From: Pseudidiomarina halophila
Lineage (GTDB): Bacteria; Pseudomonadota; Gammaproteobacteria; Enterobacterales; Alteromonadaceae
DNA: 64,000 bases
NCBI RefSeq assembly: GCF_003987215.1
Contig: NZ_PIPW01000001.1
Coordinates: 930,001-994,000 of the forward strand
Direction of reading: 5' to 3'
Position 1 is the stretch's first letter, and each line of letters starts with the position of its first letter. Of this stretch, positions 17,627-54,922 are shown one piece after another. The translations under genes were made by a program, and so were the position numbers. The notes beneath the pieces are model-generated. The model worked only from the letters and a program-made list of their open reading frames with translations, was not told the DNA's origin and did no database searches.

Positions 17627-18342
17627 CGGTGCAACAGCTGACCGGACAGACCGACAGTCACGTTGTCTGCAATGAAATTTGTCGTCCTTCTGTGCGCCTG
17701 CAGGCGCCTGTATTTGCGGCCTACTCGGCTATGCACAGCGCCGCAGCTGAGGCCGGCCTGGCCTTAGGTATAGCTTCAGGATTTCGCGATTTTGATCGGC
17801 AACTGGCCATCTGGAATCGTAAGTTTAGTGGTGCTGCGCCGCTGTACACCATTGACGGCGCACAACTGGATTACAGTAGTTTAGCGGTGGGAGAAATTGT
17901 TGAAGCGATCATGACCTGGTCAGCGCTGCCCGGCGCCAGTCGCCATCACTGGGGTACAGACCTCGACGTATACGATCCCCGGCCTTTTGCTGCTGGTGAG
18001 CAAACTCTGCAACTGGTTCCAGAAGAATACGACGAAGGCGGCCCCTGCCATGAACTCGCACTCTGGCTGCAACGTCATGCTCAGGACTTTGGCTTCTTTT
18101 TCCCCTATCGACAGTATCGTGGCGGTGTCGCCGCTGAACCCTGGCATTTGAGCTACCGTAATCTTGCGGCTCTGGCACAGGAACAGCTGAGCCTTGAGGT
18201 ATTACAACAGGCCCTGAGCGATGCCGACCTTGCCGGCAAAGAATACGTACTGGCGTGTTTACAGGAGTTAAAAGAGCGTTATGTCGATACTATCTGCGGT
18301 GCAAATGCTGAAGAGGAGGATAACGGATGGGTTTTTGGTTAA
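17620..18342 (+). CDS. M15-family D-alanyl-D-alanine carboxypeptidase (VanY-like)
   Basis: A 240-residue protein with the zinc-peptidase M15B pattern: [14 protein letters not shown], the metal motif [14 protein letters not shown], and EPWHLSYR carrying the third ligand and catalytic residues. VanY-like enzymes trim D-Ala from peptidoglycan stem peptides or act as L,D/D,D-peptidases. No signal peptide is visible, which is unusual for a cell-wall enzyme and could mean a cytoplasmic recycling role. It is in the yffB-dapE operon, overlapping dapE by 7 and the next small gene by 16 bases. Confidence 0.87.
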
Positions 18343-18506
18343 TTCTGGCGTTAGTTTTCGGGGTGGTGATTGGCAACCTGATGCTGCTTAAGCATACGGC
18401 GAAAATGAAAATGCCGTCGCTTAAGCAACGGCATTCGGAGGATTCCACTAAAGCGGATACCGATAAAAAAGATAGCGATAAAAAAGATACCGACAAAGAA
18501 GATTAA
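18327..18506 (+). CDS. Small DUF2897-type membrane protein
   Basis: A 59-residue protein starting at ATG 18327 after GGAGGA. Residues 3-21 form one hydrophobic helix ([19 protein letters not shown]), followed by a basic stretch and a low-complexity Asp/Lys tail with the repeat DKKD. This layout matches the DUF2897 family of small gammaproteobacterial single-pass proteins, which have no known function. It overlaps the M15 peptidase gene by 16 bases, so it is translationally coupled, and its stop overlaps the purC stop by 4 bases on the other strand. Confidence 0.8.
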
Positions 18507-53272: not shown

Positions 53273-54922
53273 TTAAATGTCCAACAGCAAACGCTGCGGA
53301 TCTTCTAACAATTCTTTGATGGTAACCAGGAAGCCAACTGACTCCTTACCATCTACGATGCGGTGGTCATAGGATAATGCCAGGTACATCATAGGTAGAA
53401 TCTCAACTTTGCCATCCACTGCCATCGGCCGGTCCTGGATCTTATGCATGCCCAGGATTGCACTTTGCGGTGGATTCAAAATTGGTGTCGACAACAATGA
53501 GCCGAATACGCCACCGTTAGTGATGGTGAAGTTACCGCCTTGCATGTCATCCATGGTCAGTTTCCCGTCACGACCTTTCAGTGCCAGGTCGCGAATACCA
53601 TTTTCAATATCAGCGATGCTCATCTTGTCCGCATCACGTAATACCGGAGTAACCAGCCCGCGAGGAGTAGATACCGCGATGCTGATATCGAAATAGTTAT
53701 GGTAAACGATATCATCGCCATCAATTGAGGCGTTGACTTCCGGGAAGCGTTTCAAAGCTTCGGTGACGGCTTTTACGTAGAAGCCCATGAAACCTAAACG
53801 GGTGTCATGACGCTTCTCAAACTCGTCTTTGTATTTCTTACGCAAGTCCATGATCGGCTTCATGTTGACTTCGTTAAACGTGGTCAGCATTGCAGTCGCG
53901 TTCTTCGCCTCCAACAGGCGTTTGGCGATCGTTTTACGCAAACGCGTCATAGGTACGCGCTTCTGATCGCGATCACCGGCTGCGGGTGCACTGCTTTCGC
54001 TCTTCGCGGCAGCTGGTGCTTCTTTCTTACCGCCGTCTTTAACATGTTTCTCAACGTCTTCTTTGGTCACGCGACCGCCTTTGCCAGTGCCTTTAACGTC
54101 AGACACTTTCAAATTATTCTCAGCCAGCAAACGACGCACTGCCGGACCAGCAACTTCTTTGTCGCTGGCATCGTCTGAAGATTCAGATTCTTCTCCAGAG
54201 TCACCATTCTCCGTAGTAGAACTACCGCCTACGTCGTCGTCAGCGGCGCCTTCGCCGCCCGCTTCAACAATACCGATAACGTCGTCGGCACCAACTGTAG
54301 CGCCCTCATCCTGCTTAATTTCTGCAAGTACGCCATCGGCAGGAGCTACTACTTCCAGCACAACCTTGTCGGTTTCGATATCGACCAGATTCTGGTCGCG
54401 GGTGACTTTATCGCCCGCTTTAACGTGCCAGGTAGAAATTGTCGCATCGGCAACAGATTCTGGTAGTTGCGGAACTTTAACTTCAAGCTTTTCACCTGAA
54501 CCTGCTTTCTTGTCAGACTTGCCATCAGATTTCTTGTCAGATTTGTCGTCAGACTTTTTGTCAGACTTCTTGTCAGATTTCTCATCAGACTTCTTGTCAG
54601 ACTTGTCATCAGATTTCTTGTCAGATTTGTCATCAGACTTTTTATCAGACTTGTCGTCTGAATCATCTGACGAGCCATTACCGTCACCTTTTTCAAGTTT
54701 GCCGATAACTTCGTCGGCACCGACGGTAGCGCCTTCTTCAGCGATGATTTCGCCGATTACGCCATCTTCAGGTGCGACAACTTCAAGCACCACTTTGTCA
54801 GTTTCAATGTCGACCAGATTTTGATCGCGAGAGACTTTATCTCCTGGCTTTACGTGCCAGGTAGCGACTGTTGCATCAGCAACAGATTCAGGTAATTGTG
54901 GAACTTTTATATCAATAGCCAT
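53273..54922 (-). CDS. sucB: 2-oxoglutarate dehydrogenase E2 with two lipoyl domains
   Basis: About 549 residues, longer than the usual ~405 of E. coli SucB. It has two lipoyl domains, residues 1-77 and 146-222, nearly identical ([28 protein letters not shown]), with lipoyl Lys43 and Lys186. They are joined by a low-complexity linker (residues 84-140) of [11 protein letters not shown] repeats. The E3-binding domain ([19 protein letters not shown], about 258-295) and the transsuccinylase domain (about 320-549, catalytic SYDHRIVDG) are intact. The double lipoyl arrangement is usual in pyruvate dehydrogenase E2, less so in SucB. Start ATG 54922 is chosen over a TTG two codons earlier. Confidence 0.95.
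54503..54673 (-). repeat. Lys/Ser/Asp-encoding repeat tract in sucB
   Basis: A tandem array of imperfect 12- to 24-base units, each giving KSD or KSDDKSDK on the reverse strand, spans the linker between the two lipoyl domains. Such repeats can vary in copy number by replication slippage. Confidence 0.85.

Follow-up and report, generated by a model that had tools for sequence, protein, structure and literature searches.

The gene at positions 53273 to 54922 of the window (the whole stretch of 64,000 nucleotides analysed here) encodes a SucB protein with two similar lipoyl domains joined by a repetitive Lys/Ser/Asp linker, which raises the question of how old the second domain is and from what kind of DNA the linkers were built. 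The first-pass annotation had suggested a recent or homogenised duplication. We consider it highly probable that the protein is an ordinary two-lipoyl dihydrolipoyllysine succinyltransferase (E2o) in which linker 1 was enlarged by duplication of Lys/Ser/Asp (KSD) coding DNA and linker 2 was entered by a GTAG-REP that has since decayed.

The open reading frame was found on the minus strand as first annotated, from an ATG at 54922 to 53273, and encoded a SucB of 549 aa. Pfam confirmed the two lipoyl domains with the Lys/Ser/Asp linker between them and showed two Biotin_lipoyl stretches, one E3_binding domain and one catalytic domain in that order. All features were on the minus strand; lipoyl domain 1 (LD1, residues 6-77, 54692-54907) and lipoyl domain 2 (LD2, residues 149-220, 54263-54478), each with a 72-residue core, were separated by linker 1 (54479-54691) and followed by the E3/peripheral-subunit binding domain (residues 258-291, 54050-54151) and the acyltransferase catalytic domain (residues 319-547, 53282-53968). 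The protein scored 700.6 bits with the TIGR01347 sucB profile (cut-off 378.65) and 738.4 bits with PRK05704, also above cut-off, while its score with SucB_Actino TIGR02927 was 351.4 bits, below the cut-off of 423.45, and it was not assigned to that family. IETDKV was present in both lipoyl domains, so the same active-site Lys stretch was indeed found in each; we take it to be the lipoyl-site motif, with Lys43 and Lys186 as the predicted lipoyl sites. The neighbours, named by eye, were sucA upstream and sucC and sucD downstream. Overall, the window SucB is probably an ordinary E2o subunit and is predicted to be functional, and, as in the rest of the family, both of its lipoyl domains would shuttle succinyl groups among E1o, the E2o core and E3. 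An antisense ORF of 253 aa (54063-54824, plus strand) also overlapped sucB; its Ser/Asp-rich repeat part would arise simply because the KSD array is encoded on the opposite strand.

The distribution of the two-lipoyl form was read from 233 SucB loci, which comprised 80 named genome contigs, loci from further searches and 80 extracted regions. The named-contig set leans to two-domain proteins since it was the best-scoring 80 of at least 590 matches. The lipoyl HMM found two domains in 194 loci and one in 39, although these are not independent counts because some loci were the same gene reached twice. Within the GTDB family of the window, 52 genera were sampled, 50 had a match and at least one locus was read for each matching genus; SucB carried two domains in 48 of the 50 and one domain in the other two (g42 and g69). 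For the other families of the order, 24 genomes were sampled, one had no match and 21 were read, and the SucB of all 21 carried a single lipoyl domain. The identity between LD1 and LD2 of the same protein had a median of 76% across 174 distinct pairs and was 82% in the window, with 5 of the 174 pairs higher. As the two-domain form was present across 48 family genera and a single domain outside the family, the duplication is old, and the two-lipoyl SucB is the ancestral or near-ancestral form in the GTDB family of the window. The first-pass annotation had itself named a two-domain form with divergent lipoyl copies in most relatives as evidence against its proposal. This was the pattern found, and a recent duplication was rejected, also because 25 of the 60 residues common to LD1 and LD2 of the window were encoded by different codons.

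The single-lipoyl SucB loci of g42 and g69 (L132, L135, L180-L192, L206 and L207) were suspected to be split genes since their ORFs seemed to lack an ATG. A split gene, frameshift or readthrough was rejected because all 17 loci had a GTG start at the lipoyl domain, where GTG was its first residue. The arrangement resembles a deletion that removed domain 1 together with the old start. In a quick tree, the g42 lipoyl domain was placed beside an LD2 with a support of 88, which weakly suggests that g42 lost lipoyl domain 1.

LD1 and LD2 of the window agreed at 60 of 78 residue positions and 175 of 234 base positions. The two domains had been called nearly identical, and they are similar, but the wording was somewhat strong for these values. 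The longest base run identical between them was 13 of 216. The other half of the first proposal, homogenisation, corresponds to gene conversion in Idiomarinaceae that would keep the two domains alike by concerted evolution and make them look younger than they are. In a tree of 72 columns, LD1 and LD2 of the Idiomarinaceae representatives grouped together with a support of 94 (this group was named after the first tree was inspected, and two long rows were dropped for the second tree), and 4 of the 72 sites showed a departure from the commonest state in both copies. At identical LD1/LD2 residues of the window, the codon was shared in 34 of 58 cases where 23.1 would be expected (z 3.0); this ranked fourth among 174 proteins, 22 of which had a z above 2. 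However, the tree has only 72 columns, and approximately unbiased (AU) tests on it rejected neither a clade of all LD1 (p 0.566) nor one of all LD2 (p 0.185). The mean z within proteins, 0.72, differed little from the 0.63-0.85 obtained when LD1 and LD2 were compared across species, and the longest identical run was 13 nt. Likewise, the median identity of 76% within a protein was close to that of LD1 with LD1 between distant relatives (75-77%), with LD1-LD2 identity across proteins slightly lower (72-73%). Homogenisation of the window domains is hinted at, and we regard concerted evolution in Idiomarinaceae as a rather unlikely explanation of their likeness.

Linker 1 consisted of 71 residues, of which 63% were charged, with a net charge of -1. 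Within it, Tandem Repeats Finder (TRF) detected an imperfect array at 54506-54658 (residues 89-139) with periods of 12, 24, 36 and 48 and 73-85% matches. All Ser codons of this 51-residue KSD tract were TCT (12/12), whereas those of sucB outside the linker were mixed (TCT 10/24), and the longest exact repeat was 25 nt. The repetition of the array is at the level of DNA and more than chance, and the uniform Ser codons and the 25-nt repeat suggest that the tract grew by DNA duplication; its history fits duplication of a short unit coding Lys/Ser/Asp followed by drift, by which linker 1 would have been enlarged. The earlier description of a charged, repetitive linker expanded at the DNA level was therefore upheld. 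An assembly artefact, against which it had cautioned, is improbable: the reading frame is unbroken and relatives have charged linkers of a related kind. A genome-wide search for the KSD repeat DNA pattern gave 6 matches, all within the sucB tract, and none elsewhere. The length of linker 1 was 31-71 residues in 25 proteins of the same genus and 24-100 in 174 proteins. Two linkers of the same genus (L025, L026) were Ala-rich with 16% charged residues compared to 63% in the window, while charged expansions of linker 1 with other units were present in other species (L005, L016, L193), with mixed Ser codons. In genus g35, the linker of L193 (G168) was a 100-residue Lys/Ser/Asp stretch and that of L233 (G281) had 71 residues and was strongly acidic, with a net charge of -43. 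A second, unrelated Ser/Thr-Asp-Lys repeat was found in the window at 18327-18506 (plus strand), in a 59-aa protein with a hydrophobic N-terminus and a C-terminal repeat coded by a 15-bp tandem repeat.

Linker 2 contained a different kind of repeat, which the first-pass annotation had not noticed. The peptide VARSSTAG was common to the linkers of the other two E2 proteins of the source genome (E2p and E2b), and the DNA coding for it was a GTAG followed by a hairpin. In linker 2 of the window SucB, the GTAG palindrome was matched with 3 mismatches at 54209-54232 (minus strand, phase 0, read as VGGSSTTE), with 0 matches in 100 shuffles. The stem was broken by the mismatches and the segment folded at -6.5 kcal/mol, a value that 26 of 200 shuffles equalled or bettered. 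As the pairing is lost, its origin rests on its place, its phase and its match of 21 of 24 bases to the SucB copy of a congener (G007). The SucB genes of G007 and G018, both of the same genus, carried a copy without mismatch, in frame, in the matching linker 2 and a further copy with at most 1 mismatch in linker 1; the other 22 SucB genes of the genus scanned had no REP copy. The segment at 54209-54232 is thus identified, from its sequence, as a putative remnant of a decayed GTAG-tagged REP. Linker 2 would have taken in a GTAG-REP, a mini mobile element of the RAYT type, that read VARSSTTG and later decayed to VGGSSTTE.

The source genome contained 44 REP copies at ≤2 mismatches, and a degenerate exact pattern found 46 copies there and 130 in G007; the reversed-pattern controls gave 0 in each case. 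The copies had a GTAG head followed by a palindrome and were many, dispersed and often in inverted pairs, as is characteristic of GTAG-REPs. A Y1_Tnp gene at G000:C3:610033-610371 of the source genome was identified as a REP-associated tyrosine transposase (RAYT; NF047646, 155.9 bits, cut-off 80), and it was flanked by REP copies at C3:609338, 610547, 610635 and 610723. The family was present in 16 of 26 genomes of genus g1, which includes Pseudidiomarina piscicola (G003, L048) and Idiomarina loihiensis SN11 (G014, L045), and was found in none of 33 other genera (one genome each) and none of 19 genomes of the sister genus g52. A REP-dense stretch of G007 (L303-L308, within G007:C1:1149600-1276500) held many inverted pairs, tandem groups and several subtypes. 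Another REP-positive genome, G006, had 42 copies, but its E2p, E2b, SucB and Der genes were free of them.

A total of 65 genes were scanned for REP copies: 22 E2p/E2b, 25 SucB, 15 Der and one each of RodZ, HscA and YjbH. Der, RodZ, HscA and YjbH were chosen because a REP had already been found there, and the E2 genes were first noticed likewise. Der, HscA, YjbH and E2p were identified by profile; RodZ scored 172.4 bits, under its cut-off of 208, with RodZ_C and HTH_25 found by Pfam, and the gene called E2b was below every equivalog cut-off among those shown, its branched-chain assignment being made by eye. The 65 genes contained 44 copies, 43 in sense phase 0 and one antisense (the second copy in YjbH), and twenty further E2 genes had 3 copies, all in sense phase 0. 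Hence 46 of 47 copies in profile-identified genes were read in sense in one phase, the independent number being smaller because many in-gene copies are orthologous. Ten gene-linker sites besides YjbH (E2p 2, E2b 3, SucB 2, Der, RodZ and HscA) all shared one reading out of the three or four stop-free readings per subtype. Intact in-frame copies, coding a VARSSTAG-type peptide, were present in both sister E2s of the source genome and, within the genus, in SucB, Der, RodZ, HscA and YjbH. The YjbH-type gene (L318, G000:C1:53000-57500) held an opposite-orientation REP pair with in-frame read-through, and with it the only antisense copy in a profile-identified gene.

The picture differed for ORFs at large. 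Of the 44 copies in the source genome, 5 were in ORFs of at least 140 aa, all of them identified genes and in sense phase 0, and 28 were in no ORF of 80 aa; the remaining 11 were in ORFs of 81-134 aa that were not taken as genes (3 sense phase 0, 1 other sense phase, 7 antisense). In the G007 stretches, 90 of 124 copies were in no ORF of 100 aa and 34 were in one, 22 of these in sense phase 0 and 12 in other readings. Twelve of the 34 were counted, all in sense phase 0 in E2p, E2b, Der, RodZ and HscA, and 22 were left out, including all 12 other readings, as they were judged by eye to be outside true genes (close to either end of an ORF, within ORFs 110-141 aa long, or inside two REP-array-like ORFs of 212 and 286 aa). 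The frame bias holds for profile-identified genes and not for ORFs at large; both the antisense YjbH copy and the other readings in long ORFs not accepted as genes were counted against the REP explanation. In-gene REPs would be read almost only in the hydrophilic frame, which may reflect tolerance and selection on the frame.

The E2p and E2b genes of the source genome held three intact REP copies and one decayed copy. The three E2 genes make up 0.19% of the genome and contained 3 of the 46 exact copies against 0.09 expected (P about 1e-4, a value calculated after the fact, as the E2 genes had already drawn attention). At least one E2p/E2b copy was found in 10 of the 16 REP-positive genomes and none in the other 6 (E2p alone was checked in G023), and the E2 genes of seven REP-negative genomes (both genes in four, one gene in three) had no copy. 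The same REP family would have entered the linkers of the sister E2s and, in a few other proteins, a linker or loop, with transposition as the likely route.

In linker 1 of E2b, the 24-nt REP core was identical (24/24) in the source genome, G007, G016 and G018, compared to 50-74% identity at third positions of the catalytic domain and 47-65% in the REP flanks, apart from one close pair with 88%. Across the 43 sense copies, the eight stem pairs were Watson-Crick in 40-43 and more than one Watson-Crick type (two or three) occurred at three inner pairs. One stem pair at the Der site read T-A in G007, against C-G in three further species. REP subtypes at the same linkers also differed by species. 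These alignments point either to renewed entry or conversion of the same sites by REPs or to selection on the sequence. The VARSSTAG-type segment might be a conserved functional peptide, such as one for docking or modification, and not a mobile palindrome; linkers of several E2 proteins do carry this same peptide. This is very improbable, however, since the in-gene DNA equals repeats outside long ORFs base for base, silent positions included, changes in the stem preserve the palindrome among the subtypes seen, and the peptide shifts with the subtype (VARSSTAG, VARGSTTG, VARTSSTG, VARRSTPG).

The in-gene hairpins could instead be kept for ribosome pausing at domain boundaries or for control of mRNA stability. 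The identical E2b core set against the diverged third positions and the compensated stem change at the Der site would agree with such a role, as would the fold of two in-gene copies with 8 pairs at -12.3 and -14.3 kcal/mol. Yet many congeners have no copies, the window copy has decayed, and the identity is equally well explained if in-gene copies were homogenised with REPs elsewhere in the genome or inserted repeatedly. In addition, Rfam gave no match at gathering score in four REP-bearing loci (L235, L234, L006 and L319), and we consider a hairpin role improbable. A wider possibility, offered tentatively and as doubtful, is that in this genus RAYT-driven REPs reside in core-metabolism genes with the linkers of the three E2s as standing landing sites, through repeated insertion, subtype swap or upkeep of DNA identity, so that a mobile hairpin serves as a renewable linker module and perhaps as an inter-domain pause signal.

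With the favoured reading of an old two-lipoyl E2o with a duplicated KSD tract and a decayed REP, the two-domain SucB is ordinary for its family, and the linker repeats would be without effect on catalysis. What the linkers show is how repeated and mobile DNA can supply the flexible tethers of central enzymes. In its E2 genes, the genus also offers a natural experiment, with zero, one, two or more REPs per linker in related species, and this variation makes it testable whether the REPs are neutral passengers, are homogenised by the transposase or affect translation or folding.

Among known systems, Rickettsia palindromic elements are palindromes found in frame inside working genes, and in this they resemble, by description, the copies reported here. 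E. coli-type SucB (TIGR01347 / PRK05704) has the same catalytic, E3-binding and lipoyl domains; the window SucB differs by a second lipoyl domain and the 71-residue charged linker. The E. coli-type models have 404 and 408 positions, with room for one lipoyl domain; the contrast first drawn between one domain there and two here was upheld. E2 chains are described in PMC6270654 as having one to three lipoyl domains and flexible linkers that are Ala/Pro-rich in E. coli E2p; the window protein is like these chains in its repeated lipoyl domains on extended flexible linkers and unlike them, as far as that description goes, in linkers that are rich in Lys/Ser/Asp and contain DNA repeats. A literature search for Idiomarina with lipoyl found none, and the match for two lipoyl domains with succinyltransferase was bovine. 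Among the matches listed, none for Idiomarina with palindromic was evidently on REPs, none for REPs with lipoyl or linker was evidently on E2 linkers, and no precedent appeared for the E2-linker REP set, the single frame or the in-gene identity across species. GTAG REPs with RAYTs, some of them inside ORFs, were described by Di Nocera et al. 2013 (PMC3733652), whose main text also mentions Rickettsia palindromic elements and has 0 occurrences of 'Idiomarina' and 'dehydrogenase'. The text itself proposes that linkers may tolerate intragenic REPs, and its emphasis is on repair and replication genes, with more than half of the in-gene inserts being dimers or groups. The GTAG head, the short stem and loop, the inverted pairs and the RAYT beside REPs are shared with the family described here. 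In contrast to the inserts presented in that text, those of this genus are mostly single copies in one frame in the linkers of three E2 paralogues. Intragenic REPs are already known; what appears to be new is the set of host genes, the use of one frame and the apparent homogenisation inside genes.
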